Assembly: GCA_964036195.1 (NCBI GenBank)
Contig: OZ038450.1
Coordinates: 31,064,794-31,128,793, forward strand
Length of the DNA stretch: 64,000 nt
From: Sphaerolaimus hirsutus
Taxonomy: Eukaryota > Nematoda > Chromadorea > Monhysterida > Sphaerolaimidae
Direction: 5' to 3'
A program made the position numbers and the translations under genes. Positions within the stretch are counted from its first letter, which is position 1. Each line of letters opens with the position of its first letter. Under the pieces are notes generated by a model. It was not told the DNA's origin. It saw nothing but the letters and a program-made list of their open reading frames with translations, and did not search any database. Shown here one piece after another: positions 6,754 to 51,800 of the stretch.

Positions 6754-6845
6754 TCAGGGCAGCTGCTCTACATAATTCGCCGGAATTAATCCAGTTTTCC
6801 CGTTCAAAGTGCCCACCAGCCAGCCCTGCTCTCTCGATGGATACA
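6754..6845 (-). CDS. Graf: Graf exon 21 (SH3, second half, stop)
   Basis: [20 protein letters not shown] followed by [10 protein letters not shown] and TGA. It matches the family end, [22 protein letters not shown]. The SH3 is the C-terminus, as in GRAF. Confidence 0.95.
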
Positions 6846-9800
6846 CTGCGCATTTTTGTCAAAATATTAAAGTTGAAAACATGGCAAAGATGAATATATG
6901 ATGCATCGTGAAGCAGTGTGAAGTAACTCACGGAGCAAGCTATTCTCATTGAAAACGTAGAAGTGTATTTTTGACACACATACTGAATGTAAAAGTCATA
7001 ATTTTACTCTGGAATACAGAAGTTGTGTTTTTTTCTCCTGGTTAGTGTTTCTAAGGAAAATCTCCATGTGTGTCATTTCTGTTGTCAAAATGTTACTTCC
7101 TGTGCTCCGTTAAAATACGTTTTCTGTACACGCGTACTTTCAAAAAGTACGCGTAAAGGCGAGTTCATGTATTTTTTCCAGAGAAAACGTAAATGTGTAT
7201 TTACTCATTACTCGAGTACATGTATTTTTGAGTAAACGTAATACGTTTCAACGGGGCAGGCCTGATACGCACATCTGCCCGTTACGCACATTTGCCCATT
7301 TTTTTCACTTGACACTTTTTCAAGTGATTTTCAGATATGAGTGAAATGAAAAAAGTTCACTAATGTCACGAAAGCGTTTTTCACTTAAGTGTTTCACCCA
7401 CTACGACATCATGTCTAGGGTTCAAACGGGATTGACTTTTCGGGATCGGGATTGTGGACTGCTAAATCCCGGAATTTCACGGGATCCGGGATCGGGATCG
7501 GGATCCCGTTTGAACCCTAATCATGTCGTGCCCAAAACTGACCATTGGTCACTATTTGTCCAGGTTCGAAGGAGAGTTCGCTCGGGTGGCCCGCGGCGCA
7601 GTCGTAGAGCGTTCGAACGCGTCCACTGAGAAAAAACACACTTTTTAGTGTGATGAAATTAATGTTTGTGTTTGTTTTAGCAATATGCACACTGAAAAAT
7701 GCCCATAGATGAAAAATGTCAAACAAAATTTGACAAAAAAAAACACAGCGAGCCAAGGAAAGTGAGCAACGAAAATGATTTATTACATGCCTGGATGTTA
7801 ATTGAGAATGTAAAAAAAAACACAAACCGATTGAAATTTCCAATAATTATGTTGCCATTGTGGTGATTCGACTGGTCAGTAGCGTGAGATGTGCTGAAAG
7901 AATTTTTGGTGCAGAAAATAATATTTTGCAAGCACGAAGGCATGTGTAGTTTTGCACCGTATAATACATAAAAACTGTGTAAAAATAACTTATACCACAA
8001 ATTATATTCACACAAAATTCATTCAAATATTCACACATTACAACAACAAGTGAACGCGTGCCCGATTTCAATGGGAAAGGCAATTTTTTTTTGTGGGCAG
8101 TGCCCGGCTCCAGGTAGCAATTGGTCAATAGCGTGCGTTTTTGCGACGGCGCCATGGAGACTTGGCCACTGGTAAACTTGGCTGCTTGCCATGCAGCCAT
8201 TTACTGTATAAGTGTGAGCTGAAAATCAATTCTGTTCAGTGTGTAAGCATTCTGTGAAAGTCATGTAAAATGTCAAATTTTATTTTATATTTGACATTTT
8301 AATGACATTTTACATGGCTTTTGACACTGGATGACATTTGACATTTGTCAGGGCAGTTCCGAGTCGGACAGTGGCACCGAGGGACATCTGACGTATTTAT
8401 GTATTTATGCCTAGCAGCGCACTGGCCAATAATACAGGGGTGGGCATCTTCAGTTACCGCTGGAAAAACGCGATAGCTTGAGCTACAGTTGAGCTATCAC
8501 AATGAAATTTTAACACAATAGAGTAGACTCCATAGGACACCTATGCTGAAGTTTGCAACCCAAACGGCCACAGTTTGGAGGAGTTGTGGAACACACAGTT
8601 TTTAGTGTAATTTTGTGACTTCACCCCCCTTATCTCGGGACTGGGGTTCTATTCGAGTAAAAAAAAAATTTGGTAGTAGGCGCGACCACAACATACTCAA
8701 AGGGCATCAAAATCGGCCGATGTACGACAGAATGGGACGACACCAACGACCGATGCCCCCCCCCCCTCAAATGCCACCCTCGATTTATCCTATGGGTGAC
8801 GCCAAGTCACAAAATTACACTAAAAACCGTGTGTTCCACAATTCACCCAAAATGTGGCCGTTTGGGTTGCAAACTTCAGCATAGGTGTCCTATGGAGTCT
8901 ACTCCATTGTGTTAAAATTTCATTCTGATAGCTCAACCGTAGCTCAATCTATCGCATTTTCCCAGCGGTAACTGAAGATGCCCACCCCTGTATTTGACAC
9001 ATTGCACACTATTGGCCAAACGCTACCAATGCTTTTCCAATTGAATTGGGCGTATAAAAATCGAAAATGAGACATAACTTTGACTTTTTACACGATAACA
9101 TTTGAAACTTACGAATTGAACATTTGATGAGTGGGTCTCGATGAGCGCCAAACTCTTTTCTGCCAGCTAACGGAAAATTGAAAATATTGCTCAAATTGCA
9201 AATTGCTGTAGGTAAGACTGTCGCATTTGCATGTGCAATTGCAATGCCATTTGTGCAAATTTCCATTACCATTATTTTTGTTGTTTACGTTTTCACACTT
9301 GAAAATGGTGACTAGTCTACAGAGAATGCTGCAGACAGCTACAAAGATATATTTTTGCAAATTATATTTTGCACTTGCAAATGAACTATTCTTAATTTGC
9401 ATACAGTCACTATGAAAACTTGACCTATTTTACAATGGTCTACCTAATATAAAAAATCATAAATCTAAAATTGAAAAAAATACAAGCAGATGGAAACAAA
9501 CCAATCAGTGCCAGGGTAGGGTGGTGCATATGATATGCTCATCCGACCTGAAATAAAGGGTGAAAGGGTTAAATAATCAGTTTTAGTATGCCCACTATGG
9601 CGTTGCGCACACTAGTTTACTGCCAGTAAACTCAAAATTTAGTTAACTCATAAATCAACTTTGAATGACATTTGAGTTTACTGGAATTGGGTGTTTGTCA
9701 ACTACAGCAAAAATAACTCATTCCAGAAACTCAAATGCATTCAAGGCTGATTTGTGAGTTTACAGAATTTTTAGGTTTCTTAATTTTTTTTACTTTTTTA

Positions 9801-12800
9801 AAATTTTCTTCAGTAAACTAGTGTGTGTAGCGACTATATGTTATGGGAATAGGGAACTATTTATTATGCAAGCCCTAACAAACTCAAAACAGTGTATTTA
9901 TATTCAATTGAAAAAAATTATGCGGGGAAAATTGATGCATCATAAACACCTCTATGCTAGGGTGTCAAAAAAACTGAAGGGCAAAAAATTTCATATATCG
10001 GGATATGGAAAACAGAAAATGAAAAGATAAAAAATTGTACACGTGAAAAACGAAAGCGGTGGTGAATGGAAAGTCGACGCGCCCTAGTTGAAGCTTGTAA
10101 AATATTTGAGTAAGTGTGTTAAAGGATTTTATCGGAATCCAAAATTCCTGTCAAATAAAATACTGCAATTCGAAACTTCAATTTGCATATGATTTTAACA
10201 CCCAACTCGCACACCCCCCTAACCCCCCCCCCCCAAAAAAAAAAAACGCACCAAACTTGGCCAGGGCCCTCCTATGCCTTGCCTGCACCACAACTGGATC
10301 CTTACCCTGATCCTGATCCCGATCCTGACAGGCACCCCCCGCATTGCTGCTGGTCACGGCAGAGTCCACAGAACCAGGGGGCAGTCCCAGACCCTGTAAA
10401 ATACTCTGTAAAATGTAAAATGTCATGCAAAGTGTCAAAAGTCATGTAAAATGCCCTTCAAAATGGCAAACGTACATTAAACATTACAGAAAACAGAAAC
10501 AGATTTTTTTTTGCACTTGGCGGAAACGGAAAACAATTTGCCTGCGGAAAACGGACAATGGAAAGTTGATACCCTACGTTTGCCATTTTACAGTGCATTT
10601 TACATGACTTTATACACTTTGCATGATATTTTACATTTGACAGGGCACTTTACAGGGTCTGGGAATGGTACCGGCCAGGGAGTCGGTGCTCGCATTGGCC
10701 GGCTCGAAGGCGTTGTTCGTAGCGTTTGCTAGTAGAGTCGCATTGCTTGTGCTGGGCTGATGGGGGCCTGGGCAGATTGGGGTGGTTTTTTTTGCGCTAG
10801 ACCAGTGTGGGTGGGTGGAATGGTGTCGTGCTGAATATTGAATGTACCTATTTACGTTTGTTTAATACTGGGTACCGTATATCCTTGAATAAGACCCCCT
10901 TGAAAAACATTGGTACCCTGAATGACACACTCCTACAAAACTTCTGACGAAATAATAGCGCCCATGGGGTCTTATTAGAGGATATACGGTACGTTAAATT
11001 GAAGTTGCAACACAACACGTTGACTCGAAATACCGTCAAAGGGTTATTTTTTCAGGGTCTCAGGCTACTTGGAGGGGGTTATTTTTTATAATCTCGCTCA
11101 GACGTGGGGGCATTTCAAGCGGGCGGGTGGGTATAACGAAGCAATACCGTATTTACAATCGTATCGGTTTTCGTTACTTGAAAAACGTTTCACGAATGGA
11201 CTTTGTTGCAGAATGAATGCAAAGTCTAGAAAAAAGTTCTGGCGCAATTGCTATTTAGTTTGTTGGTGCGGATATAAAAGTCGCCGAAACACTGGCGCCA
11301 AGTTCAAACAGCGCCATAACGTATTTATCTGGAAGCATGGCGCCAAGCGCCAATCGCTGTGCGCAAAGTAACGCCAAGCTGTAAACACCATGGTTATTTT
11401 TGCTTTGGCGTTGGCGCCATGGCGTATTTATATCACTAGCAGTCAGGGACATAGGTATCCAGGATTTTTGAGCGGGGGGGGGGCTGCTTGTTTACGGAGC
11501 CCGGCGAACAGGAGGGGGCTCAGCCTCCCCCCCTGAAATTAAAAGGCGCCACGCCATGGCACTGGCGCCATTCATAGGCGCCATGCCTTGACGCCATTGG
11601 CGCTGGCGCCAGCGCCAGAAACCGCTGTAAATATATGTATGAAAAAACATGTTCATATAGAGCGGCGGGCACATCATTTCATGGATTTGTGTCACCGGGG
11701 ACCGATCCGCTTATAATTAGGTGTTGGAAGGGAGGATTAGGGTTGGAAAAAAAACGTTTTTTTTTAACTCGATGTTTTTTAAAAAAAAAAAACGTTTTTT
11801 TTTAAAAGCTCCCAGATATGACCTAGTGTCAACATATATAGGTATATCAGACACTGGCAATACTCTGTGATGTTAAATATGACCATATAATGGCTGTGGA
11901 GCCATGGGATAGCATTATAAGTGGTGATTTGTGTCAAAAATATCCATTTTTCGTCGACATATCGTTCGTATATCGCCTTATAGTCGAATGTGCGTGACTT
12001 CAGGTAAAGTTTGGCACGGAATAGTAATCAAACAAGGTTATAAAAGGAGGTTGTTACTTTGGGAGTGAATTTACACACTGTGGAGGTACATGGAAGCACA
12101 TTACCTCAATATTATATATTACAGCAACATATGTCGGCTTATTCACCCATGGTAGCACATAGAAATGGATGTTTTGATACTAAAAATGCAACAAAACCAA
12201 TGAAAACAACCGCCAATGTCAATTTGTGTGTGAAATTGCGCGCTTGCGCGCAAAAATTTTGCAAAATACCTAGTGCTTAGTACTAAAAATTTCGGCTGAT
12301 GTTTTTTTTTTAAAAAAAAACATTTCGGACGTCATGTTTTTTTTTAAAAAAAAACGTTTAAAAAAAACATCGGCCAACCCTAGGGAGGATCGCGCGCTAG
12401 CGCGCGAAATTTTTGCACCTGCCATGAAAAATGTATCGGAAAAGTTGCATTTCCCGGGATTTTTTAGGCCTCACCCCGGGAGCGGGGGGGGGGGGGCTGC
12501 AGCCCCCCCCCCGCCCCCCCCCTGGATACGTCCTTGCTAGCAGTTATTCTACCTATTCGAAGCAATTTGAAACACCATCAAAACTGCAATCATTTTGCAT
12601 TTCTTTGCAGTACTTTGTGCCGTCGCTCAACTAATTCAATGGCGGAATTGACGAAATTGCGATATACACATCTGTTGGTTAAGCACATTAAGCATATGTA
12701 GACGGAAAAAAACATATTTTACATATTTAGGTGATAAAATGCAAAAATACCATTCATATGATATACTTCTATTCAATTTTATAGCACGAATTCCCATGCA

Positions 12801-15800
12801 TATAAAAATGATGGTACCATTTTTTCTAACAGTTATTTAGCTAACAGTCAGATAAGAAAACATTTATATTGACTAAAAAAGCAAATTGTCAAATGACCAA
12901 ATTCAGACAATCCTTAAAATGTCATAATAATTATGTAGTCATAAGTGCAGAGTAAACTTGCAAATTGTCTGTAAATAATTCTATAGGAATTTGGAACTTT
13001 AAAGCTTGCAAGGTGTCTGAAATTTTGTCACTTGACAGTTAATTTGACGACATACAGAATATTCCAGAAAAAAAAGAATGAATATTATAGTGGCACTGTG
13101 AGTTTATCAAATAACTTAACTTATCACTACCCAGGTTTCCTCAGATATCATAGCAATTTTTGACATTTTACTTGGCATCTTAAAGGACTTTACAAATTTT
13201 GAATAATATTTGACATAGACACAGCTTTTTACAATTAATTTTTTTCAACGAAATATTCCTCCAAAACGCAGCTCGATTGCAATCGGTGGGCAAATTTTGT
13301 CCTCTGGGAGTTCGAATGCAGCGGAAAATATTCCTATATTTTATCAAGCGAGGATTGAAATCAGCAACACGGATAGCCCTACTGTGGAAACAATGTACCA
13401 TATTTGCTTGAATAATTCCCCCTTGAATAATCCCCAACAGGGGTCTCCTAGGGGGGGGGGGGGGGGGCTGCCCCCCAAATCGGCCAGCTATCTATATATC
13501 CTGAGGCAAAATTTTTGGCTACTACCCCCAAAGACCCCCCCCCCCAAATCGCTCAGCTATCTATCCATCTGGAGTGGTTTTTGTGAAATTTTGCCCCAAT
13601 TTTCGCTTAAAGTCCATAATTTTCGCACCTTTTTATAGTTTTTCACCTTCAAAATCGTGCTCTCCGGCTATATGCATCATTATATGCCTGTTTTTTAGCC
13701 ATTTTAAACCTACTTTTGACTGATTATTAGCGGGTTTTTTCCCTTTCGGCCTTCTATGCACTGAAAGCCTAAATATTTTGCCCCCGCGAGCCCCCCCCCC
13801 CCCAGAAAATTTTTTCAGCTATCTATCCCTCGGGAGGAGCGATTTGCTATCTATCCAGCCCCCGCGAGGGCCAAAATCTTGGAGACCCCTGATCCCCATC
13901 TTGAATACAACCCCCTTAAGACGAGTGAGCAAAGCGTACATCATCCCTGTTTGAAAAATTCCCCACTTCAGGCATATTATCAATTTGTTATGTCCAATTT
14001 TTACAAGATGTTATTGTGTTTACAAAGCCTATTTTGTGCAATGAGTAAAAAAAATATGCTTGAATCTTTTGATGAAATAATAATCCGCCTTTCTTGAAAA
14101 ATTTCCCCCTCAAAATTCTCCCTCATAAAGTCCGACGAACAAGAATTCCCCAAGGGAATTTTTCGAGCAAATACAGTAACTCAATATTGCGTTTTGTGCT
14201 GTTTACATTTTTGTCACAAAATATAAATTTATCCTTAAACTTGAACACGCAGCTGCACCAAAGAGCGACTTTTGACAATTATCAGTAAGCTACCAAAATC
14301 CACGAGACCACAGTATGTTCTAGGATTTCAAGCGTGTCAAAGGTTGTTGTATCGAAATCTATTGGCGTTGGCTTACAACAAGTTTGTTAAAAAATTTTTG
14401 TCATTTTTTACATCTTGTCATAGCTGCATTTAAATATTAATGACGAGTGAATGATGAAAAGAATACATTATTGTGGTGGGTAGTGATGTCACATAAAGGC
14501 ACCGGAAAAACGGCACCACACAGCACCGGCATCACTCCCTTTGCATGAAAATGGCACCTAGGCACCAGCAAAAATTGCGAGGGCACGGCACCGGCACCGG
14601 TGAAAGTGCCTTTTGGTGTCAAGCACCAGGACACAGGTGCCGCAGTCGGTGCCTTTACATCACTTATGGCGGGACGTTTTACAACGCTTTAAAACAAATA
14701 CATATAGCAACTTTTAGTTCACCATTTAACTTTTCCAATCTCCACTAATTTTAAAATCACCATTTTTCCTGTCAAATTCACATTTTTTTGCGCGTAGAGG
14801 CGGAGACATAATGGAGAAAACGATTACCGTGGAGCAACACAAATTCCCCTGCGATCTGTGGAAAGTGGCGAATACAGCCGACCCAACCGTAGAAGTAAAA
14901 TGCAGCGTGATATTATCCGATGGAAGTACTACGCCTTGGACAGAGACGAAAAAATTCACCAGAACTGGGGTATTTAAATTGGCCACGATTTTTTAAAAAT
15001 CTTTTTAAAATTGACAGTGACAAAAATTCTCTCGCAGCAATACCCCTGGCCGTCGACATTTAATTACGGCCAACTGGATAAATTGCTGGTGGAATTTGTG
15101 AAAACGACACTGGCTAATTAAGCCTTGTATTTATGAGCTCATTGCATGAATCAATTTGCACATGCAAATCAAAATTTTAAAAATCAACAATGGGCTTATA
15201 AAGAATCAGGAAAAATCGATCGTGTGAATACATAGTTTCAATTTTCAATAAAACGATTTCAGAAAATTTCAATTTGCATGTGCATTTTGAATTAGCTTAC
15301 TCAGCGGGTCCTGTGCATCGATCAATGATAAAAATATAGGTTTATCTTTAAACTATGTTATCCATTTCATTTCATGTCATTTCATGTCCTGCTTTCAAAT
15401 ATTTACAATGTGAATGGAAATTGTGGGAACAATATAGCATGATCGATAAACATAACAAAAAAAAACCCACGAACCCAACATTCACCCACTACTCACCTCG
15501 CACCCTGCCCTCAGGGGGCTGCGAGCTCTGTCTAGCAGACCCCTGTCTATTTCCACCACTCCTAGAAGTATTAGAATCAGCATTCAACCTGCCAGCCCAG
15601 CTGTGCGCTGGTGAAGATGGCACTATGGCAGTTGGCAGAGTGCCAAGTGTGAATAAACTGGCATTGCAGGGTTCCAGTTGGGTTCGGTTAAGGTGCTGGG
15701 TGTTTGTGGGTTGGCTGTGGGATGTGTCCAGGGTGTCGTTGCTGCAATTGGGTGGTTGAAGTGTGTTTTAGGTTATTGAAAGTGAAATGGCAAAATTGAA

Positions 15801-24800: not shown

Positions 24801-27800
24801 CAAAACAAAGCCAAAAAAATGCAACATTCAAAATAAACAAACAATAGCCACTCTCTGGTCTTCGACTTGACATATAAGCTGGCCAAATTCTTGTAGACAG
24901 CCAGCTGTAGGAAATGAAATACTGTATATAATGCTTATGATTTATAGCGGGGAGAGACAGACTTGTCATTTGGGTCAAAGGCTCTACACACAGTGGGCGT
25001 CAACTGGTATCCATGTCAATTCAGATTTTAGTTGACGGGTTGCAACTAGTGAATGATGTAAAAGCAACATGGCGCTGGCGCCTGGCGCTAGCGCCAAAGC
25101 AAAGAGCGCCATGGCGCCTTTGTCGCTTGGCACATTTTTGATGTTATACTCGACGGACATCACACTTAGTATGTAAACCTACCGTAACCATCTGAATAAT
25201 GAACCAAAAATTATAAAGTTTTTTCATCATAATATTTAGTTTTTACTATGGGATAATTACTTACGAAATTTATGAAAGTGCTGCTAATTTTGAGAATTTC
25301 AACTGCAAGCTCAACTTGCATGTTTAGAAATACACTTTGAAGATTTTTCCACTATTTTTTTGCTGTGACTACACAGTTTACAGAACCATTACCTCAATTA
25401 GCCCTTTTGTGAAATCTCTGCAAACTAGTTTACATGTGACACATTATTTTGTGATTGTCAGGTATCCCTTTACCTCAAAGGATCCCTTCAAACAATCCAC
25501 TCATATTTGAGCTGTGACCACAAATTTGAGCAAATACTTACAAAACAAAATTTTCCAATGTCTCAGAGATTTTCTGACCATTTCAATATTTGTGCCTACA
25601 CACACTAGTTCTTAACTGAAATTTTGCAAACACATATATCAGCTTAAAATGCATTTGAGTTTTCCAAAATGAGTGAGCTTTAGTTTCCATCAACTGTAGT
25701 TGACAGCCTCATCATTCTGGTAAACTCAAATGCTGACTTGTGAGTTTTCAAAATTGAAGTTGCAAACTGGTGTGTGTAGAGTATATTTAAACTACCTAGT
25801 TTGCAAAGACTCTTTGTGCAGGGTCAAAACAGCCCCAAACAAAGATGAAAAACATAAAACACCCCCCCCCCCACAGACAAATCTGGCCACGAATACACAA
25901 CTACACATCAAAGGGCACACTCCCAAAATGAAACCAATCCATCATAAGAGCGCACCCCCCCCCAAATTGTTGCGAAATTCACTCTTAAAATACATACCTA
26001 TAACTTTCTCTTCCTCTGTTTGAGAATTAGCGGCCTCGAATCGAAATTGGCCAATTGCCCTGGCGAAGCCTCGATGCGCGTCCGATAATTCTGGGATTTA
26101 TTTGAATGTTTTTTTTGTGTTTTTTTTGGGGGGGGGGGAATTTTTAGAGTGAGGCTGGAGAAAATTTGTGGGATTTTTGGTAGGGGGTTCAGGTTAAGAC
26201 ATGGAAATTTTGGATAATGTGGGAATTTCCGGAAAAAAACGGAAAGGTAAAATCAACGGAAAAGAAGCCCGTTTAGAGTATTTCCAAATATTGATATTTT
26301 CAAATTGCGTCAAACTTTTTGTGAAGTTTATGCCCTATCCCCACAAAAAAAAACAATTGTTCGAAAATGCCATTTCCGTACTGCGGATGCGGAACCAAAA
26401 ACGTTCAGACGCGGAACAAAAACTTAGTGAATATCAGTGAATGTAGCGACTTGATGATTACCTAATAAAGTCCGAAACTGATAAATAGAAAACGACCTAC
26501 AAATAAACTACCTCATATTTATTCATGAATAATTTGTTTAAGAGTATTTAGGATAATTTGGAAATTTGGTTTTCTAGTGTTTATTTTCTTGTCTAAGTTG
26601 GGACTTGAAATTTTTTGGAACTTAATTTGAGCCACAGCAATTTTTGAGCTATATTTTTTTACCTACCTATAAAAATGACCTGGAATAATATGGCCTACTA
26701 CATGATATAATATTTTATGCATATTATACCTACGTATTTACATAAAGTGTATGTACGCTTTGCGTGGAAATCTACAGCATAATCTGATGTGCAAAAATTT
26801 CGCTCAAAGTTGCTTCCAATGTGGGTAATTAAAAACATAATTCATTATCAATAGGCACACAACTTTATTCGTCAAATCAAAAAACAGATTCTGTGCAAAG
26901 TACGCGGCCCCCCAATATCCAAAAGCCAATAAAACGAAAAACATGTCATATAATGCAATAAAAAGGGCAAAATGTGGATATATAGACAGCCGCTGTATCC
27001 ATGCAATGGCATGTTTGGCACGAAATTAAACCTGGGTTATAGCTTTCCACGTGAAGAAAGTAGTTACATACCTAAGTACCGTATTTCTTCGAAATACCCC
27101 CAGGGGGTTTATTTTTTCAGAGAGAGAATTTTGAGTGGGGTTAAACGATGGGGGGTATTTCGAGGGGCTTATTATTTTGAAATCCCAGTACTAAATTGTT
27201 GTTTGTGACGTACACAGACGTCGAAAAATGCGACAAAAACCGCAATGTATTTATGAGACTCTATAGACTTTGTAGACATAGACGGTATAAACCCTGAATA
27301 ACATAACACAACACAGTCATTGTTTTTAACGAGTGTTCTGCGTTTCCCGGATCACAACCCGTAGCTTTTCTCATTTACGTTCTCTAAACACTATACCTAT
27401 TTGGGGGGGGGGGGGGGTATTTCGAGTGGGGGGAAGTATTTAGAGAAAATACGATAAACCAATTTTGCTGGAGAAAAAGCGTTCTTGCCTACTTCTGCTT
27501 AGAATTTTTATCGATGTACCGTATTTCCTCGAAATAACCCCCCCCCCCCTCGAAATACCCCCCTCAAAATGGGCACTATGAATTTGTGGTCCGGGAAATG
27601 CATTCAAAACACTCACTGTTACGTTAGAACATCGTTTATACCATCTACATCTACATTTACACAGGTCCCGGCCGGGGACCGGGACCCGGCAAAAAATAAA
27701 TTTTTTCAAAAGTTGATAATTGGTGTCTATGTGTTATTTGCATGTTAATTAGGTGAATTATCACCAAATTAGCATGCACAAAATTTTCGCAAGATGGTTA

Positions 27801-30800
27801 CATGCTCTGATGTATTTTCTTTGGGGGAGTGTCAAATTTTTGTTGGATTTGTCTGAATTTTTGCATGCATGTACTCCTGCATGTAGTGAGCGCGCATGCA
27901 AAATTTCAGCTCAGGGCGATAAGCGGTTCTTATTTTTTTAACGCTCTTATTTTTGTTAATCACTGTATTTTTTTATAGTGCATGTAATCTTGCCGGGGTC
28001 CGGTCCCCGGCAATATCGAAATGTCCCCGGTCGGGGCCAAACGACCCCGGTGAGAAAATTTTTCTTTCAGTATACAACAAATTTTGGTCCCCGACCGGGG
28101 TCGTTTGGCCCCGGTACCACACGAAAATTTATGGCACTTTTTGATGCTTTGTGGTTATTGTCCCCGGTCGGGGCCAAACAACCCCGGTGAGAAATTTTTT
28201 TTTCGGTATACAACAAATTTTGGTCCCCGACCGGGGTCGTTTGGCCCCAGTACCACACGAAAATTTATATTATATAAATAATTTATATATTACCGTATTT
28301 CCTCAAAATACCCCCCCCCCTTGAAATACCTCCCCCCCTCGTTTGACCCCCCCTCTCGAGACCACTATGAAACAATCACCCCCCCCCCCTCGAAATACCC
28401 CCCCCCCAAATTGAGTGTAAAGGGAACGTACATGACAATAACTGTAGTTAGTGTTCAGTGTACTGCAGAACACACGTTAAAACAATGTCGGTGTCACGTT
28501 AGAACAGTGTACATACCATCTACATACTAATATTAGTCTACAGAACCTTATAAATGGCGGTTTTTGTTGCATTTTTCGACGTCTGCATACGTTTCAGACG
28601 ACAATTTCGTACTTGGTTTTCAAAAATTTTCTTGTGAAATAATAACCCCCCCCCCCCCTCGAAATACCCCCCCCCCTCGTTTAACCCCCCCCCCTCTCGG
28701 GACCACTATGAAACAATCACCCCCCGGGGGGTATTTCGAGGAAATACGTTAATATATTAACGTGTTACGATTTTATGACCATAGCGAACGGCAAACACTG
28801 TCCAGGGACTTTTTACATGCTGTTGTACATTGGCCGATTTTGATGTCATTAAAGTATGTTGGGGTTTGGGGTCTGGGCTATGACCAAAAATTATTGTTTG
28901 CTCAAATAATCCCCCAGTCCTGAGATAAAGGGCGTCTATACAAAGGTGTTCATTTTGTATGCCTAATCTGGACATTGATTTTGAAGCTTAAAAAGTTGGT
29001 CATTTATGGGCTGTTTTGGATTGGTCAACACTTAAAATCACCAGGACAGCGTGCAGATTCAATTTTTGTGGTTGGATTAGTGATGTGTAAATTTCATATG
29101 CTGATTTGATCCAGTTGAATGAAAATGCATGCAATTTCAGAACTCACAATCTCAGCCATTTCTCAACCGATTTTCACCAATAAACACTTAAAATGATCAT
29201 AATCACCTGGAGCTTCCATATTTATGTTCTGATTCTCAGCTGCCATTCCTAGACCCTGTAAAAGACCCTGAAAAGTGTCAAAGACCCTATAAAATGTCAT
29301 GTGTCATGTAAAATACCCTGTAAAATGTCATGTGTCATGTAAAATACCCTGTAAAGTGTCATGTGTATCCAAATCTTTTCTTATCATATCCAAATCTTAT
29401 GTTTTTGTATCCAAATCTTACCATTTACATAAGATTTGGATACAAAAACATAAGATTTGGATACAAAAACATAATATTTGGATACACATGGTACTTTACA
29501 GGGTCTCTTACATGACATTTGACAATTAACTGGGTCTTTTACATGACACATGACGCTTTACAGGGTTTTACATGACACATGACATTTTACAGGGTCTTTG
29601 ACACTTTACAGGGTCTTTTAAAAGGTCTGGGAGTGCCCCCAGCATGTGGTCTATGCCCATTTCTAGTTTACACACTATTATTATTTTGCATATGGCCTGC
29701 AGAAACATTTTTTGATCTCCAAATGATCGAGATTGTGATTTATGATGATCTGTGGTGCACAGCAATAATTACTTTGAATGGCTATGTAAGTGACAGATTA
29801 TTCTTACAATTGTTTTTACAATGGGGTATTTATTGTGGCATAAACTGTATTTTGCAATGGGACACACTTGTAAATTGAAAAAGTTCACATTGATGCGATT
29901 GAGTAGTCAATGTTCGATTAATCAAGTGGAGCATTTGATGTTTGCATGTGTTTTACTCTGCTCCAACATAATAGGCACATGTAGTGATGGAAAAGCGCCA
30001 TGGCGCTTTTGGCGCCTGGCGCTAGCGCCAAAGCAAAAAGCGCCATGGCACTTTTGGCACTTGGCGCTTGGCGCTTGGCGCTGGCATCTGAGAAAGCGCC
30101 ATGGTGCTTTTGGCGCTTGGTGCCATTTTCTGGTGGTGCTATTGGTGCCTGGCGCCAGCATTTAAAATGGTGTGTTGACCGTAGTGGAATGGATGGATAG
30201 AGAATACAGAGAAGTAACAATTAGGAGTAATTTGTCCATATTTATTTCATGCACTGTGTAATTTATCCGCACAAACTATTTCTATTCATGCACTATATTA
30301 TTTTACCACAACTAATCTTCAGTTTTCATACACTATATTATTTCTCCATGGAAAATATTTGAGTAAGAAAGTGTCTTATAAGTTATTGTAGGATTATTGA
30401 GAATATTCAGGTTAAAAGGTCAATTATGTTATAATTAGGTTTTTGGATATAAAATTAGGCTCATTCGACTCATCATAATTTTCTGGTTATTATATATATA
30501 TATATACATTTGTATGGTTTACATGTAAAATGGAAGCATCAAACCTTGTTATAATATATTTTCTTTACTTTACATTACATACCTTCTTTGAACAAGCGTC
30601 CTAATAGAGAAATGGTGCCCTGCATATTTGACTAGCATATACTTTACATAGCCCTTGGCATAGACATATTCAATTAACTTAGCAATACTCTATTCACATA
30701 TATATTTGACATGTTTTATATATGGAATCTCATGCCAATTTCAACTATGACATTCATTTACCTCAATTAAAACTCAATTTGCTCAACTATCAAATACACA

Positions 30801-33800
30801 TTTTTAGGAAGTGATTATTATACTTAATTCATACCCTGCTCTGCTTATATTTAGGAACAGTTTACAACACTATTTACAGTTTCCAACTCTATCAAATTAG
30901 TTTCCAAACTGCGTCAATGTTTTCTGTTAAATTGGAATAGATTAGTAACTCGCCTGAGTTTGCCAACTTAGCGCCCCACAAGATAAATTGTTTCTTTCTC
31001 GCCCAATTTGTACTCTGTATTTCTTTACCATACTTGTTTGAATGTGTACGCGCGCTGCATAAGCCAACAGTTTAGGTTAAATGTATCCTATTTGTGCATT
31101 GTATTTAGGAAATTATTGTAGCCAAGTTTTATATACAAATTTACGTGTTTCTGCAACTTTCGAAGCTTTTACTTCAGTCTTTTGACCCCGAGTTTGGAAT
31201 AAATAAGTTAGCAATAGAAACTTTGACTAGGAAGCTTGCTAACTTTGCGCTTTTGTATTTCATGCTGCATCTGATCGACAATAAAGTACCTGAAACAACT
31301 TTGAACACCTCTTTCAACACACAACAACAAAATAAACATAATTGGCTGCCGGCAAGTGAACGTTTGGCTACAAGGAAAATCCAACCACTCTAAAGACCGT
31401 CACTCAATACAGTCTTGGAGTTGCCAGAATCGGTGGCAGAGGTCGCTAACTTCAGTAGCTTCATCACAAATGGGCCAAAAAAGCGCCAGCCATGATTATA
31501 CAAAATTCAATAATGCAGATAAATCAACAATCTAATTCATGAATTTTCAAGAAAACGGAATTAATTTTGCTGAATTATGGTATACTCAACATAATTTCAT
31601 AAATACCATATATAGGCGAGCAATTCCCCAGGAATGTTTTTTATCAGACGTTTCTGAGGGGGGGGGGCTATTCTAGGGGGAATACACCATATATGAAATA
31701 TGAAACACATCCAGGGGGCAACATGAAAAATACTGAGGGGTGGTCCCAAACCCTGTAAAGTATAATGTAAAGTGTCATATGTAAAGTCAAATGCAAAGTA
31801 AAGTGTCCACTGTCATGCAAAGTGTCAAATGTAAAGTAAAGGGTCAATTGAGTATTCAAATCTTATTTTCTGTATCCAAAATATAAATTCCTGTATATGG
31901 AAAATAAGATTTGGATACAAAAGTAAGATTTTGATACACAGTTGAGACTTGACTTTACATTTGACTTTACATCTGATACTTTTCATGACAATTAACACTT
32001 TACCTTGCATTAGACTGATTTTACATTTGACACTTTACTTAACAAGGCTTGGGACTGCCACCAGGTCTGAGTAAGCAGGGGAAATAATACCCTCTGGAAA
32101 TACCCCCACCCAAAATGAGTGTAAAGAGGATGTAAATTAACTGTATTTTGTGATCTGTGTTATGCAGAACACATGTAAAAAGATGACTGAGTTACATTAG
32201 GACAAGGATTATTATGTGATCTATATTTTATATGTATTTGGATACTTATCTTTACATTATGGTTATCATCTGAGTCAGAGGTATCCAGGATTTTGTTCCT
32301 CTCAGGGGTTTGGTAGATAGCACATCACTCCTCCCAGGGATTGATAGCTGAAAATACTGTTTGGGACATCGTGCCACATAATAAAACCACATTTTGACTT
32401 TGGCGCTGGCGCCATTGGCGCTTGGCGCCATACCCTCCTGGCGCCATTGGCGCTTGGCGCCGTGATCCAGAAAAGCACCATGGCACATTTGGCGCTTGGC
32501 ACTAAAACGCTCTGGCTCCATTGGTGCTTGGCGCCATGGTTAGGAAAAGCACCATGGCACTTTTGGCGCTTGGCGCTTAAAACCTGGCGCTTTTTCCATC
32601 ACTAAACACATGGTTTCTGCATGGTACTTTTACAAAGTGCAGAAAACTTGTTTCATTGTCAAAATTGAAACAGCTACTCAATTGAGCCCTCAATAAATTC
32701 CACTTTGAATACCCCCACCCCTACTTGAAAAACTGAACATTGAATAACCTCCCTCAAATAACTCCTCTATAAAGTTGGCCTTGAATAATGCCCCTTGAAT
32801 AAATCCAACCCTTAGATAAAATAGTTCACATTGAATAATTCCCACTTTGAATACCCCCACCCCCTTCCAAAAACTGAACCTTGGAATAACACCCCTTTGA
32901 ATAAATCTCTCCTCATTGAGTAATTCCTTGCTTGAGTAAGATGTGATTGAGATTGATTGGTCTTTGGTTTTTTTTTGTGCATGATTCCTGCGTGGTACTT
33001 GCAGACAGTGCAAAGAAATTGTAACTTACATCTCTGCCAAAATTGATGGAGCTACTGTATTTACTCCATTGTTTCCCTCTCTAACTCCCCCCTATTAGCT
33101 GAGTGTAGAAAAAAGAAAAAATACCCACTCCCTCTAAAAAAAACCCACTCCCTGATAGAACTCACCTCCGATTGATGTCTATGAAAACATTCATGGAAAA
33201 AAATATGTCATGTTTGTTTTCTTTTTAGTCATATATTCTTTTGTCAGTATTATGGGGCTTTTTACAGCAGCCCTTATAAGGGGGCGGTCCCAGGTGGAAA
33301 ATAATTGTTTTCAAAAGTCAATAATTTGTGTGTATGGCTTGTATGCATATTAATTATGTTTATCATCACAAAATTTGCATGTGCAAAATTTCTTCAAGAT
33401 GGTTACATGCGCTGATGTAACATTGTTGGGAGAGTGTATAGAAATTATTCAATTTGTCTCAATTTTTGTGTGTTTACTTCGATTTGTCTCAATGTGCTTA
33501 CTTATTCATTTAGTGAGTACGCATGCCAAATTTCAGCTCAGAGCAGTTAGCGCTTCTTATTTTTTAATGCTTTTATTTTTGTCAACCACTGTATTTTTGT
33601 ATAGTGAATGAAATCCCACATGGGACTGGTCCCTGGTGACAACAGAAAGTTCCCCAATGCAGTCCAAACATCCCTGGTGAGAAATTTTTTTCATAAACAA
33701 ATAATTTTGGTCCCTTATAAGTAAAACAAATTTTTGTGTGGCACTATGACCGAATGGACCGTGTAAGGGACCAAAATTATTTGTTTATGAAAAAAATTTC

Positions 33801-36800
33801 TCACCAGGGATGTTTGGACTGCGTCTGGGCCTTTCTGTTCTCACCAGTGACCGGTCCCCAGTGGAATTTTGTTCACTATACAAAAATACAGTGATTGACA
33901 AAAATGAAAAAATTTGAAAATAAGAACCGCTAACTGCTCTGAGCTGAAGTTTGGCATGCGTACTCAGTAAATGAAGGAGTAAACACATGCCAAAATTGAG
34001 ACAAATCAAACAATTTCTATACACACTCCCAAAGAATATGCGTCAGCGCGTGTAACCATCTCGACCGGTCCCTTATAAGGGCTGCTGTAAATAGCCCCAT
34101 AATACTGACAAAAGAATATATGACTAAAAAGAAAACAAACAACATATTTTTTTCCATGAATGTTTTCATAGACATCAATCAGAGGCGAGTTTTATCAGGG
34201 AGTGGGTTTTTTTAGAGGGAGTGGGTATTTTTTCTTTTTTCTACACTCAGCTAACAGGGGGGAGTTAGATAGGGAAACAATGGAGTAAATACAGTAGCTC
34301 TATCAATTTTTGCAAAGAGAGATGTAAGTTACAACTTCTTTGCACTGTCTGCAAGTACCACGCAGGAATTGTGCACAAAATAAACCAACCAAGGACTAAT
34401 TAATCTCAATCACATCTTACTCAAGCAAGGAATTACTCAATGAGGCAAGATTTATTCAAGGGGTGTTATTAAAGGTTCAGTTTTTTGAAGGGGGTGGGGG
34501 TATTCAAAGTGGGAATTATTCAATGTGAACTATTTTATCTAAGGGATGGATTTATTCAAGGGGCATTATTCAAGGCCAACTTTATAGAGGAGTTATTTGA
34601 GGGAGATTATTCAATGTTCAGTTTTTCAAGTGGGGGTGGGGGTATTCAAAGTGGAATTTATTGAGGGCTCAATTGAGTAGCTGTTTCAATTTTGACAATG
34701 AAACATGTAGGTTAAAGTTTTCTGCACTTTGTAAAAGTACCATGCAGAAACCATGTGCCTAGTGATGGAAAAAGCGCCAGGTTTTAAGCGACAAGTGCCA
34801 AAAGCGCCATGGCGCTTTTCCTGACCATGGCGCCAAGCGCCAATGGAGCCAGAGCGTTTTAGCGCCAAGCGCCAAATGTGCCATGGCGCTTTTCAGGATC
34901 ATGGCGCCAAGCGCCAATGGCACCAGGAGGGTATGGCGCCAAGCGCCAATGGCGCCAGCGCCAAAGTCAAAATGTGGTTTTATTATGTGGCACGATTTCC
35001 CAAACAGTATTTTCAGCTATCAATCCCTGGGAGGAGTGATGTGCTATCTACCAAACCCCTGAGAGGAACAAAACCCTGGATACCCCTGACTCAGACAATA
35101 ACCATAATGTTAAGATAAGTGTCCAACACCATATATAAAATATAGATCGCATAATAATCCTTGTCCTAATGTAACTCAGTCATTTTTTTACATGTGTTCT
35201 GCATAACACAGATCACAAAATACAGTTAATTTACATCCTCTTTACACTCATTTTGGGTGGGGGTATTTCCAGAGGGTATTATTTCCCCAGCTTACTCAGA
35301 CCTGGTGGCAGTCCCAAGCCTTGTTAAGTAAAGTGTAAAATGTAAAATCAGTCAAATGCAAGGTAAAGTGTCAATTGTCATGAAAAGTATCAGATGTAAA
35401 GTCAAATCTAAAGTCAAGTCTCAACTGCGTATCAAAATCTTACTTTTGTATCCTAATCTTATTTTCCATATGCATGAATTATTATTTGGATACAGAAAAT
35501 AAGATTTGAATACTCAATTGACCCTTTACTTTACATTTGACACTTTGCATGACAATGGACACTTTACTTTGCATTTGACTTTACATATGACACTTTACAT
35601 TATACTTTACAGGGTTTGGGACCACCCCGCAGTATTTTTCATGTTGCCCCCTGGATGTGTTTCATATTTCATATATGGTGTATTCCCCCTTTGAATAGCC
35701 CCGCCCCCTCAGAAACGTCTGACAAAAAACATTCCCGGGGAATTGCTCGCCTATATATGGTATTTATGAAATTATGTTGAGTATACCATAATTCAGCAAA
35801 ATTATTCCGTTTTCTTGAAAATTCATGAATTAGATTGTTGATTTATCTGCATTATTGAATTTTGTATAATCATGGCTGGCGCTTTTTTGGTGCCATTTGT
35901 GATGAAGCCACTGAAGTTAGCGACCTCTGCCACCGATTCCGGCAACTCCAAGACCGTATTGAGTGACGGTCTTTAGAGTGGTTGGATATTCCTTGTAGCC
36001 AAACGTTCACTTGCCGGCAGCTAATTATGTTTATTTCGTTGTTGTGTGTTGAAAGATGTGTTCAAAGTTGTTTCAGGTACTTTATTGTCAATCAGATGCA
36101 GCATGAAATACAAAAGCGCAAAGTTAGCAAGCTTCCTAGTCAAAGTTTCTATTGCTAACTTATTTATTTTAAACTCGGGGTCAAAAGACTGAAGCAAAAG
36201 CTTCCAAAGTTGCAGAAACACGGAAATTTGTATAGAAAACTTGGCTACAATAATTTCCTCAATACAATGCACAAATAGGATACATTTAGCCTAAACTGTT
36301 GGCTTATGCAGCGTGCGTACACATTCAAACAAGTATGGTAAATAAATACAGAGTACAAATTGGGCAAGAAAGAAACAATTAATCTTGCGGGGCGCTAAGT
36401 TGGCAAACTCAGGCAAGTTACTAATCTATTCCAATTTGTCAGAAAACATTGACGCAGTTTGGAAACTAATTTGATAGAGTTGGAAACTGTACATAGTGTT
36501 GTAAACTGTTCCTAAATATAAGCAGAGCAGGGTATGAATTAAGTATAATAATCACTTCCTAAAAATGTGTATTTGATAGTTGAGCAAATTGGGGTTTAAT
36601 GAGGTAAATGAATGTCATAGTTGAAATTGACATGAGATTCCATATATAAAACATGTCAAATATATATGTGAATAGAGTATTGCAAAGTTAATTGAATATG
36701 TCTATGCCAAGGGCTATGTAAAGTATATGCTAGTCAAATATGCAGGGCACCATTTCTCTATTAGGATGCTCGTTCAAAGAAGGTATGTAAAGTAAAGTAA

Positions 36801-39800
36801 AGAAAATATATTATAACAAGGTTTGATGCTTCCATTTTACATGTAAACCATACAAATGTATATATATAAAAATAACCAGAAAATTATGGCGAGTCGAATG
36901 AGCCTGATTTTATATCCATAAACCTAATTATAACATAATTGACCTTTTAACCTGAATATTCTCAATAATCCTACAATAACTTATAAGACACTTTCTTACT
37001 CAAATATTTCCATGGAGAAATAATATAGTGTATGAAAACTGAAGATTAGTTGTGGTAAAATAATATAGTGCATGAATAGAAATAGTTTGTGCGGTTAAAT
37101 TACACAGTGCATGAAATAAATATGGACAAATTACTCCTAATTGTTACTTCTCTGTATTCTCTATCCATCCATTCCACTACGTTCAACACACCATTTTAAA
37201 TGCTGGCGCCAGGCGCCAATAGCGCCACCAGAAAATGGCGCCAAGCGCCAAAAGCACCATGGCGCTTTCTCTGATGCCGGCGCCAAGCGCCAATGGCGCC
37301 AGAGCATTTTAGCGCCAAGTGCCAAAAGCGCCATGGCGCTTTTTTCTTTGGCGCTAGCGCCAGGCGCCAAAAGCGCCATGGCGCTTTGCCATCACTAAAT
37401 GTGCCTATCATGTTGGAGCAGAGTAAAACACTTGCAAACATCAAATGCTCCACTTGATCAATCGAACAGTGACTACTCAATCGCATCAATGTGAACTTTT
37501 CAATTTACAAGTGTGTCCCATTGCAAAAGACAGTTTATGCCACAATAAATACCCCATTGTAAAAAAAATTTGTAAGAATAATCTGTCACTTACATAGCCA
37601 TTCAAAGTAATTATTGCTGTGCACCACAGATCATCATAAATCACAATCTCGATCATTTGGAGATCAAAAAATGTTTCTGCAGGCCATATGCAGATAATAA
37701 TAGTGTGTAAACTAGAAAGGGCATAGACCACATGCTGGGGGCACTCCCAGACCCTTTAAAAGACCCTGTAAAGTGTCAAAGACCCTGTAAAATGTCATGT
37801 GTCATGTAAAACCCTGTAAAGCGTCATGTGTCATGTAAAAGACCCAATTAATTGTCAAATGTCATGTAAGAGACCCTGTAAAGTACCATGTGTATCCAAA
37901 TCTTATGTTTTTGTATTCAAATCTTATGTTTTTGTATTCAAATCTTATGTAAACGGTAAGATTTAAATACAAAACATAAGATTTGGATATGATAAGAAAA
38001 GATTTGGATACACATGACACTTTACAGGGTATTTTACATGACACATGACATTTTACAGGGTCTTTGACACTTTTAAGGGTCTTTTACAGGGTCTAGGAGT
38101 GGCAGCTGATAATTGGAACATAAATATGGAAGCTCCAGGTGATTCTGATCATTTTAAGTGTTTATAGGTGAAAATCGGTTGAGAAATAGCTGAGATATTG
38201 AGTTCTGAAATTGCATGCATTTTCATTCAACTGAATCAAATCAGCATATGAAATTTACACATCATTAATCCGACCACAAAAATTGAATCTGCACACTGTC
38301 CTGATCATTTTAATTGTTGACCGCTCATAAACAGCCCATAAATGACCAACTTATTAAGCTTCAAAAGCAATGTCCAGATAAGGCATACAAAATGAACACC
38401 TTTGTATAGACGCCCTAATCTCAGGACTGGGGGATTATTTGAGCAAACAAAAATATTTGGTCAGAACACAAATGAAATTTAATGTACATAATTATTTACT
38501 GCAGATTTCAAAACAACATTAAAATCACTGCAATAGAATATGATCTCAGATGATCACCAAAAGATCCATCACAGTTCCCACGTTTCTTGCACATCACCCT
38601 GATTTGCATATTAATTTTAATAAACTTATCCATAAGTTTTCCATAACTTATTTGTGTGCGGATCCAAAGGTGATCCACCTGTTGATCACATTTTTTCATT
38701 CAAATGACGATTGTTGTTTGTGGGGGGTGATTGTTTCATAGTGGTCTCGAGAGGGGGGGTCAAGCGAGGGGGGGGGTATTTCAAGGGGGGGGGGGGTGAT
38801 TGTTTCATAGTGGTCTCGAGAGGGGGGGTCAAGCGAGGGGGGGGGTATTTCAAGGGGGGGGGGAGTATTTCGAGGAAATACGGTAATATATAAATTATTT
38901 ATATAATATAAATTTTCGTGTGGTACTGGGGCCAAACGACCCCGGTCGGGGACCAAAATTTGTTGTATACCGGAAAAAAAATTTCTCACCGGGGTCGTTT
39001 GGCCCCGACCGGGGACATTTCGATATTGCCGGGGACCGGACCCCGGCAAGATTACATGCACTATAAAAAAATACAGTGATTAACAAAAATAAGAGCGTTA
39101 AAAAAATAAGAACCGCTTATCGCCCTGAGCTGAAATTTTACATGCGCGCTCACTACATGCAGGAGTACATGCATGCAAAAATTCAGACAAATCCAACAAA
39201 AATTTGACACTCCCCCAAAGAAAATACATCAGAGCATGTAACCATCTTGCGAAAATTTTGTGCATGCTAATTTGGTGATAATTCACCTAATTAACATGCA
39301 AATAACACATAGACACCAATTATCGACTTTTGAAAAAATTTATTTTTTGCCGGGTCCCGGTCCCCGGCCGGGACCTGTGTAAATAGCCGATAATGTGGAA
39401 ATTTCCGGAAAAAAACGGAAAGGTAAAATCAACGGAAAAGAAGCCCGTTTAGAGTATTTCCAAATATTGATATTTTCAAATTGCGTCAAACTTTTTGTGA
39501 AGTTTATGCCCTATCCCCACAAAAAAAAACAATTGTTCGAAAATGCCATTTCCGTACTGCGGATGCGGAACCAAAAACGTTCAGACGCGGAACAAAAACT
39601 TAGTGAATATCAGTGAATGTAGCGACTTGATGATTACCTAATAAAGTCCGAAACTGATAAATAGAAAACGACCTACAAATAAACTACCTCATATTTATTC
39701 ATGAATAATTTGTTTAAGAGTATTTAGGATAATTTGGAAATTTGGTTTTCTAGTGTTTATTTTCTTGTCTAAGTTGGGACTTGAAATTTTTTGGAACTTA

Positions 39801-48800: not shown

Positions 48801-51800
48801 AGCGTTTGAAGTGTGCAAAGAAATGAGTGTGAAACAAAAAAAATATAAAATTGAAACTGTAGCACTAGAGCATCCTAAGTGAACTTTGTTGCGGCATACT
48901 ACGATTTTCTGCAGGAATACCACGTGTAGCTTACTGTCATATTAAGTGATGCCTTACAGCATCCTAAGTGAACTTTTAGGCAGCATACCACGATTTTCCG
49001 CAGGCATACCAAGCGTAGCTTACGGTCATATCAAGTGACGCGTTACAGCATCCTAAGTGAACTTTTTGGCAGCATACCAATCGACTAGCATACTAAGTGG
49101 TCTGGCCTCGTAATTTCCAGGAAATACGGTAAATCCTCAACACCAAACAACATGGGAACATAAGGGACTGAGATAACAGACACCAGTGTAACGAGTCACT
49201 CACAGTGGCATAATACAAATCCAATTACCACTGCCGCGGAAACAGACTGGACTAGTGATGTAAAAGCGCCATGGCACTGGCGCCTGGCGCTAGCGCCAAA
49301 GCAAAAAGCGCCATGGCGCTTTTGGCGCTTGGCGCTATTTTGCTGTGGCGCCATTGGCGCTTGGCGCTGGACTTGTGAAAAGCGCCATGGCGCTTTTGGC
49401 GCTTGGCACTATAATGCCCTGGCGCCATTGGCGCTTGGCGCTAGTGTTTTCAAAAGCGCCAAAAAAGCGCCACATAGTTGAAAATTCACAGCATTAATTG
49501 CTGGAAAAATATGTGTGTAAATTGTAATTTTGAAACAAGAGCACTCTAAAATTGGCATTCTGCTAGCTTCTAGCATTCTAAAATTGGCATTCTGCTAGCT
49601 TCTAGCATTCTAAAATTGGCATTCTGCTACCTTCTAGCATTCTAAAATTGGCATGGCATTCTGCTAGCTTCTAGCATTCTAAAATTGGCATTCTAGCTTA
49701 ACACTATTTATACTGATTGGAATTTTCACTGCTTGCTTTACTGAGAATGTTACAACAAGGTGATGTAATAAACTATGCAAATAGCAATGCAATTTTAAAT
49801 TTCCATTTTTAGTTTTTGATGAGACATACCTATATTGGATATCACAGTGAAGTGAGGAGTAATCTCAGAGGACTACTTTCCCGAAGCATCAAAAGTATTG
49901 AAATATGCCCTGCAAAATATGCAATGTAATGCTGAGTGTTAAAAGTAATGTAAAATACACTGTAAAATGTGAAATGTCATGTAAAATACCCTGAAAAATG
50001 GCAAACAGACGTTTGACATTTTCAATCGCATTTTACATGACCTGTGCTACTTTGCATGAAATTTGACTCTTTACATGGTCTGGGAAAACCCCTAATTGTT
50101 TTATTATCTACCTATTTGGAGCATCATTTTTTCCTATAAAATCGTTGATGCACTGCAATGCAAGGCGATCGCTTTAACAGTAATATAATCTCATACTGTC
50201 ATTATATCTCACAAGAGTCTCATTATTTTACCCAATACTGCAGCTTCCAATTAACCTCAGAAGCAACATCTTCTCTGATTGGTGCTATAAGGATTTCGGT
50301 TAATCTGATCTGATTGTAACTTATCTCAGTGCCCCCAGGGGCTTTATCTCGCTGTTAATGAAATAAATAAATAGAACTGGATACAAAGGCCCAAATGCTA
50401 AGCGTTTCATGTGTGCACTGCAACATGCACAAACATAGAAGTTATTTTGGCGCTGGCGCTTTTGGCGCTTGGCGCTACTGTCCTCTGGCGCCATTGGCGC
50501 TTGGCGCTGTGATCTGAAAAAGCGCCATGGCGCTTTTGGCGCTTGGCGCCATTTTGCCGTGGCGCCATTGGCGCTTGGCGCTGAACTTAGAAAAGCGCCA
50601 TGGCGCTTTTGGCGCTTGGCGCTAAAGTTCTGGCGCTTTTTACATCACTAGACTGGACCACACAACAACACAACCAGCGAGAAATCAACATGCTTGCAGT
50701 CAGATTACAGGGTGATTCACATTGCAGAAACATGGGGAGTAATGAGATAAGATGGGATGTGGTATACAATGTGGACTGCACAGTTTGTATGTGCAGGATA
50801 CTTATGTCTTACTTTTATTTATGCACTGCAGGATACTTATGAACCCACTTTCACCAACAACCAAAAAATGTTCAAAAATGCGGGTTTAAAAAAGGAAACC
50901 AGACCAGTTCAAGAAATGCATATTTCGTGTGCCTGAAAAGTTTTTTCGTCATTTTTCGAACAATTTTGATTTTATCAACAATGGCATCTTGATGCAATGT
51001 TTCGTTTCAATAGCGCCAAGCAAAATGGCGCCAAGCGCCAAAAGCGTCATGGCGCTAGAGCTAGCGCCAGGTGACAGCGTCAAAACTGCGACGAAAACTA
51101 TGGACAGGGGATCCTTCTTGTAAATACCTAGTTATAACTCTATCAGGACATAAAATCAGTTTTTCAAAAACACTTTTTTAAATTTTCCCAAACGCACCAA
51201 ATGAACCACACTGTAAGCGCTTTTCTCCATGAAAGCAGTGCAACAAAAGCAAACACAAACATTCAAACACAGCATTCATTTTACTGACGTTCAGAAAACT
51301 GAAGTCACATTTCTACAGGCGAGGGAATTGCACACAGAATGCAAAATATCAAGTCCGGGGTAAATGAATTACTGTCAAAAGAAAGTGTTATATTGAGCGG
51401 ATCAGAACACATGCTATCTGCAGAAAGCTACCGTAATTTGATGAATTAAGTGATGTGGGAAATGACTCTAGTGTCAGACTGTATTTTCCGAGGAAACAAA
51501 TTTTGTTTTTGGACAAAAATTGGTCGGATTATTCACATAGGATAGTATAAATACCCTTAATCCTTGATTATTTTCTCCGATTAAGTATTTTATAGAGGGG
51601 AACTATTCAAGGGAGATTGTTTTAGGGGGGGGGCAAATTCTATCAATTTACTATTGGTAAAAATCATATTTAACCGTATTTCCTCGAAATAGCCCCCTGG
51701 GGGTTTATTTTTTCAAAGTGAAAGTTTTGAAGGGGGTTAAACGAAGAGCGGGGTATTTCGGGGGGCGGGTATTGTGTTCTCTTTGTAATTTACTTTAGTT

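Follow-up and report, generated by a model that had tools for sequence, protein, structure and literature searches.

The Graf locus raises the question of how a gene can be read through a transposon that lies in its linker, and which cuts would take this transposon out of the message. The original prediction held that splice sites carried by the inverted termini of the element remove it as an intron gained by insertion. We consider it probable, from the genome sequence, that a very abundant NuwaI-like MITE landed in coding sequence of Graf and that the transcript loses it as a newly made intron, i.e., as an introner. The transposon-made intron in the Graf linker is probably right in this respect, and the evidence of the family is much stronger than that of the single locus. 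The cuts are probably other ones than those first chosen.

The element in the Graf linker

The window, i.e., the whole stretch of 64,000 nucleotides of DNA analysed, carries Graf on the minus strand. Its exons matched BAR_3, RhoGAP, and SH3_9 (Pfam), which backs the earlier identification of the gene. The features of the linker are given below, a slash marking a cut.

15497..15740, minus strand: linker exon 17 (frame analysis), donor CGAG/GTGAGT, one base over at the exit
10672..10767, minus strand: linker block 5' of the element (exon 18), open frame set by exon 17
10672..10674, no strand given: target-site duplication on the 5' side, CGG on the plus strand and CCG in the Graf sense, one mismatch from CTG (relatives' alignment)
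10378..10671, minus strand: putative NuwaI-like foldback MITE in a Graf coding exon, GTACCATTCCCAGACC...GGTCTGGGACTGCCCC in the Graf sense (arms, relatives' alignment, fold); the right end is an exact canonical family end
10375..10377, no strand given: target-site duplication on the 3' side of the intron, CAG on the plus strand and CTG in the Graf sense (relatives' alignment)
10375..10671, minus strand: Graf intron of 297 nt predicted by the family rule, 5' site G/GTACCA (10671), 3' site CCCCCTG/ (10375), acceptor TG and not AG (family evidence)
10306..10374, minus strand: linker block 3' of the element (exon 19), may extend to about 10257 (codon scores)
7543..7625, minus strand: first SH3 exon (SH3_9 match), acceptor CTCAG/TGGACGC, two carried bases needed
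6755..6845, minus strand: second SH3 exon (SH3_9 match)

The termini reported before, TCCCAGACCCTGTAAA (10385-10400) and TTTACAGGGTCTGGGA (10649-10664), are present and complementary, and the blocks on both flanks are open and GC-richer, as had been described. Both termini lie inside 93-nt inverted arms with 88% complementarity, short of the true ends. In the alignment of relatives, conservation ran 7 nt past them on each side and was followed by CAG or CTG triplets; ends at 10386 and 10662 were therefore rejected. The element occupies 10378-10671 (294 nt), and its right end is among the exact CTG ends of the genome. With its duplications it gave a predicted fold of −131 kcal/mol (z = −14.2), and 0 of 200 shuffles were equally stable. 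The inter-arm spacer of this copy is longer than that of the 192-nt consensus, and the best acceptor score within 10290-10800 fell in it (window position 10541, CCGTTTTCCGCAG/GC). None of the other donors within the element was strong.

Further repeats were observed in the window. A giant inverted repeat of the Graf region, a palindrome with several kb per arm, spans 27655-39384 and has element relatives inside; its arm pairs include 27655-28063/38976-39384 (99%) and 30766-31482/35884-36600 (96%). Interspersed short-period repeat families with GGCGCTTGGCGC... occur at 30068-30155, 32399-32621, 34760-34968, 49278-49454, and 50446-50594, some copies being 74 nt apart.

Exon 17 leaves one base over, and this fixes how exon 18 is read. 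Once the element is taken out together with one duplication, the frame of exon 18 runs on into the exon 19 block. The three frames of the joined 165-nt exon showed codon-usage scores of +3.4, −18.9, and −28.4, respectively, and the reading with exact removal wins by 10.9 bits, Graf being outside the training set. No GT was found in exon 18 ahead of the element. The continuity of the empty-site frame, together with the lack of this GT, argues for an exonic insertion and against an arrangement in which both termini lie deep within a larger old intron. The linker exon had no Pfam match. It is single-copy in the assembly, where no empty Graf site was found, nor a second haplotype carrying one.

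The join to the SH3 domain is less simple. With the donor GTAAGG (10305), the empty-site exon of 165 nt gives 0 mod 3, and the SH3 exon needs 1 mod 3, so the two do not join. The frame seems to continue past 10305 (+1.0 vs −8.1 and −17.8 by codon scores), and SH3 would come into frame if the weak donor at 10256 (−2.7 bits) were used. The stretch from exon 19 to SH3 was searched for a hidden exon that is entered with one base and left with two; this gave nothing or weak candidates only. The predicted 5' site GTACCA scored −2.2 bits by a generic matrix, compared with 7.2, 6.5, 5.4, and 2.5 bits at other Graf donors; the family 5' site, GTGCCA or GTACCA, is weak by this matrix. At the frame-preserving borders, Graf has a GT start and a CTG right border, i.e., no GT-AG pair, which is found at the CAG copies elsewhere.

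The family and its insertion sites

The genome searched comprised 348.5 Mb. With the Graf element as query, 152 matches were obtained from 40 scored of 4064 first-look candidates. Exact 26-mers with CWG were counted for both ends: 2601 left ends (CAG 1418, CTG 1183) and 1884 right ends (CAG 1126, CTG 758, about 60% and 40%, respectively), with 0 counts for the reversed-pattern controls. The two ends are unlike (GTGCCANTCCCAGACCCTGTAAA vs GGGGCANTCCCAGACCC), so that the element is asymmetric, GTGCC... at one end and ...TGCCCC at the other.

From the thousands of copies, 82 were re-measured, sampled by similarity to a query or from the first part of contig C1. In 69 of the 82 the two ends were of different kinds, and 67 of these 69 start with GT. 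Identical CWG triplets stood on both sides in 40 of the 69 copies, or in 46 if the right end may slip by one base within its terminal run of C. The median similarity to the consensus was 94% (58 aligned copies), and no age difference was seen between CAG and CTG copies (24 vs 10 copies, p = 0.38). Three family copies follow one another at L003:1051-1925, two of them within TRPM-like SLOG coding sequence. Two CTG-flanked copies, L036:1108 and L036:1502, lie near each other in one RRM-coding region.

With its CWG duplications, asymmetric ends, and foldback shape, the family fits a non-autonomous NuwaI-like (PIF/Harbinger) MITE. The CWG duplication is the defining mark of the NuwaI group, in the PHIS superfamily (PMC4482050), and a 3-bp duplication of this kind is found in the present family. 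The name was chosen because of this duplication and the G-starting ends, and is not based on a transposase. The family shares with NuwaI the 5'-CWG-3' duplications, the G-starting TIR, and animal hosts; NuwaI TIRs are 12-61 bp long, whereas the arms here are about 93 nt with the terminal bases GTGCC and GGGGC (PMC4482050). A NuwaI TIR usually begins with GGG; here one end is GGGGCA and the other GTGCCA. The accessible sections of PMC4482050 do not report NuwaI copies as introns. The family end pair GTGCCANTCCCAGACC and GGGGCA was also noted. Members of the NuwaI group are mobilised by a DDE transposase that has a Myb/SANT partner and shares their TIRs. PF13359 (DDE_Tnp_4) is present at high copy, with 163 matches in the genome (e.g., C47:89409-90041), and most of the listed ones have about four in-frame TGA codons. 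No PF13359 transposase joined to the family ends was found among the first listed places on contig C1 that were compared.

The copies lie in an exon-like GC peak. Around 83 copies the GC content was 0.57 within 30 nt, 0.50 at 90-120 nt, and 0.40 at 200-250 nt. A GC content of 50% or more in both 60-nt flanks was seen at 49 of 82 copies, compared with 188 of 1500 random positions from the same loci, each lying 400 nt or more upstream of the measured element.

Codon scores were computed for six classes of strand and frame shift. The favoured class is the strand with the GT end first, with a frame that is unbroken once the element and one duplication are removed. In a first test, with a codon table taken as given, a score of at least 0 was reached by 27 copies, of which 14 fell in this one class. 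In a second test, codon usage was trained on 16 favoured-class exons with leave-one-out, and a copy passed with a score of at least 0 and a margin of at least 3. The test was passed by 20 of 69 copies (12 in the favoured class, 6 on the same strand with another shift, and 2 on the opposite strand). Four of the 6 shifted copies have the right end set one base off (CCA twice, AGG, and CCT) and would be exact once this is corrected; L018 and L021 would not. Because the training set was drawn from the favoured class, the 13 passing copies outside it give the fairer count: 11 lie on the GT-first strand, and with the ends corrected 9 are exact.

A test for open runs across the junction was set aside as uninformative, since GC-rich flanks are open in several frames. 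Translation of the element rather than its removal was rejected, since the consensus has stops in all three frames.

Coding sequence across the junctions

In an earlier scan, 27 copies were chosen by eye from 65 translations. As 26 of these 27 came from the favoured strand, orientation could not be tested there, and we therefore scanned both strands of all 68 copies with enough flank, taking the best frame by codon score and requiring at least 12 open residues per side. An open stretch across the junction was obtained for 60 of the 68 copies in the GT-first strand and for 39 of the 68 in the other strand. Single scans covered 37 further GT-first translations and all 39 from the other strand, L010 entering in its slightly different version from the earlier scan. 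Above the Pfam cut-off, 13 of the 60 GT-first translations matched across the junction and 47 had no such match; the other strand gave 0 of 39, its single match (E = 0.043) being below the cut-off. The following Pfam domains span the junction, all in the GT-first strand.

Oscp1, two copies: L080:2170 and L080:1347
LSDAT_euk (TRPM SLOG), two copies: L003:1430 and L003:1782
Myosin_head: L048
RRM_1: L036:1502
LRR_6: L067
Neur_chan_memb: L007
An_peroxidase: L019
Patched: L009
FLYWCH: L029:1504
UCH: L038
Trypsin: L050

Below the cut-off, 7tm_1 (L034), FYVE_2 (L030), and RRM_1 (L036:1108) also span the junction, as does EGF_3 at L013, a copy with ambiguous ends that lies outside the 60. The alignments were ungapped over the junction for Oscp1 (45/45 and 41/41), Myosin_head (52/52), LSDAT (48/48), Neur_chan_memb (54/54), An_peroxidase (59/59), and UCH (41/41). 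The right duplication of the 13 matching copies is CAG in 10 and CTG in 3 (L080:1347, L036:1502, and L029:1504). Among the 10, L038 has CTG on the left and L019 was counted after a one-base slip.

Only a single locus of the genome matched Oscp1 (C1:3591410-3592807, three open pieces), and the listed ends of both L080 elements lie in and beside this locus. The single Oscp1 gene found thus bears two elements in its coding sequence, one with CAG and one with CTG.

Five copies, from four conserved genes, were scored in three ways. Removal of the element with one duplication gave the best match in all five. Compared with a cut leaving a 6-residue (18-nt) remnant, the scores were 63.2 and 50.7, 62.8 and 50.6, 71.5 and 59.8, 22.6 and 18.8, and 43.8 and 33.5 bits, respectively. 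The two sites of the original prediction left 37 nt, shifted the frame, and truncated or abolished the Pfam match.

The same two sites, CCCT/GTAAAG and TTTACAG/GG inside the inverted repeats, would add 37 nt to the Graf message. They are a canonical GT-AG pair, and the acceptor TTTACAG is among the best 3.3% of AGs on the strand; as the CTG duplication of Graf gives no AG at the element edge, TTTACAG is plausible as a fallback. The claim that these sites keep the frame from exon 17 to SH3 holds as arithmetic (114 + 88 nt, next donor GTAAGG at 10305), a coincidence of one in three. However, they shift the empty-site frame by 1 mod 3 and push the downstream block to a frame about 10 bits worse. 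The donor CCCT/GTAAAG is weak (19% of the GTs on the strand score as high), and the damage to domains in the five family copies also counts against these sites, which are probably not the cuts. We regard them as a real second possibility at Graf, an improbable one, and we favour with fair assurance the family-rule cuts there.

Under the favoured reading, a CWG site in the Graf coding exon, probably CTG and now CCG on one side, would have received the element. The element would supply the 5' splice site with its own first bases (CWG/GTGCCA), and the duplicate triplet behind it (...TGCCCCCWG/) would provide the 3' splice site. Loss of the element and one duplication would give back the original message unaltered. 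In the RNA, the two ends of the element are probably drawn together by the foldback arms.

A CAG right duplication makes a GT-AG intron and leaves the message unchanged. Copies with CTG would be GT...TG introns or would need hairpin-guided removal. In the two CTG copies looked at closely, GT...TG was the only in-frame cut found. Human TG acceptors act only beside an AG, the AG being recognised early and the TG chosen late (PMC2374985). In Graf, TTTACAG stands 19 nt ahead of the right edge, and ACAG occurs at the same distance in all six copies measured for it. This TTTACAG may serve for early AG recognition.

Mode of removal and known systems

We infer that the copies are removed at the RNA level by the spliceosome, and that the CTG copy of Graf would be cut in the same way. 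Removal from the mRNA guided by the hairpin and independent of the spliceosome, on the model of SOS splicing (RTCB ligation) or of the structured introns known from Amoebophrya and euglenids, is in our judgement unlikely. SOS-splicing substrates are defined by pairing inverted repeats. The Graf hairpin is very stable and links both ends, and its predicted fold, for this copy alone, indicates inverted repeats able to pair in mRNA. The three right-CTG copies with domain matches restore their domains exactly with no AG at that place. SOS splicing of DNA transposons has also been reported in animals (review PMC13247085). Orientation should not matter to such excision, yet domain matches were obtained for 13 of 60 GT-first copies vs 0 of 39 in the other strand, and this strand bias argues against a purely hairpin-based process. 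The CAG share also counts against it, being higher at the acceptor side (1126/1884) than at the donor side (1418/2601; Fisher p = 5e-4); this bias is small and is as expected if AG matters.

Very improbable is the reading in which the element is an ordinary repeat of an old intron or of pseudogenes, with non-coding flanks. Relatives of the element are frequent elsewhere in the window too, and the copies sampled are only part of thousands. The exon-like GC peak, the domain matches across the junctions, the one Oscp1 locus with its two elements, and the single-copy Graf exon all speak against this reading, which was not supported by any of the tests made. Somatic removal of the copies from the DNA, as with the eliminated sequences of ciliates, would fit exact removal with CAG or CTG alike, but orientation and the acceptor-side CAG bias point to splicing, we know of no animal precedent, and the idea is hardly credible.

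That TIR transposons give rise to introners is established (PMC9860276). The family here resembles them as a non-autonomous DNA element with TIRs and a short duplication, lying in exons and leaving the length of the message unchanged (PMC9860276). Insertion within coding exons is indicated by the GC content, the domain matches, and Oscp1. There are many similar copies, whose similarity ends at the junction where frame and domains resume, i.e., near the predicted intron borders. In the introners of Chrysochromulina the element likewise carries the 5' site and borrows the other site from the duplication, and the introner families of the same survey have 5 to >2000 copies (PMC9860276). Unlike these introners, the family here, known from genome sequence, has an animal host, long foldback arms, and CTG without AG at about 40% of the exact right ends.

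The Micromonas introners IE-B and IE-D (PMC3879977) are also repeated introns with GT-TG borders; these belong to an alga, have 25 and 6 members and very variable lengths, and the available description notes no foldback. The introners of Amoebophrya (PMC7789003) share inverted repeats, a hairpin joining the exon edges, 3-5-nt direct repeats, and borders that are often not GT-AG. They differ in host (a dinoflagellate), in 8-20-nt inverted repeats, and in very variable borders, whereas one family with a GT start and the CWG duplication is found here. SOS splicing (PMC13247085) also cuts an exonic DNA transposon from animal mRNA and heals the message; it is described as a defence pathway, whereas the present family is orientation-dependent and has splice-site-like ends. 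For hairpin-guided excision, the introns of euglenids (PMC6221363) were taken for comparison. Neither a NuwaI-derived introner family nor animal introners with constitutive GT-TG borders turned up as described in a literature search with subscription journals and preprints mostly outside its scope.

We hold a broader proposal only tentatively, as somewhat short of an even chance: the coding exons of an animal genome would be seeded with insertions of one NuwaI-like MITE, tolerated because it is excised exactly from the RNA even with CTG, by constitutive GT...TG acceptors or by hairpin-assisted excision as a normal step of expression.

The origin of new introns is a long-standing question, and introners in animals are rare in the published survey, which, in the part available, lists only two groups with introners among animals and land plants, both of them animals (PMC9860276). 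Thousands of similar copies, some in the coding exons of conserved genes, would let the gain of introns be traced within one animal. The copies, with CAG in some and CTG in others, amount to a natural series of mutations at the 3' splice site. The human survey, as far as its available text goes, did not find constitutive use of TG with no AG nearby (PMC2374985), and this series can show whether TG acceptors work constitutively.
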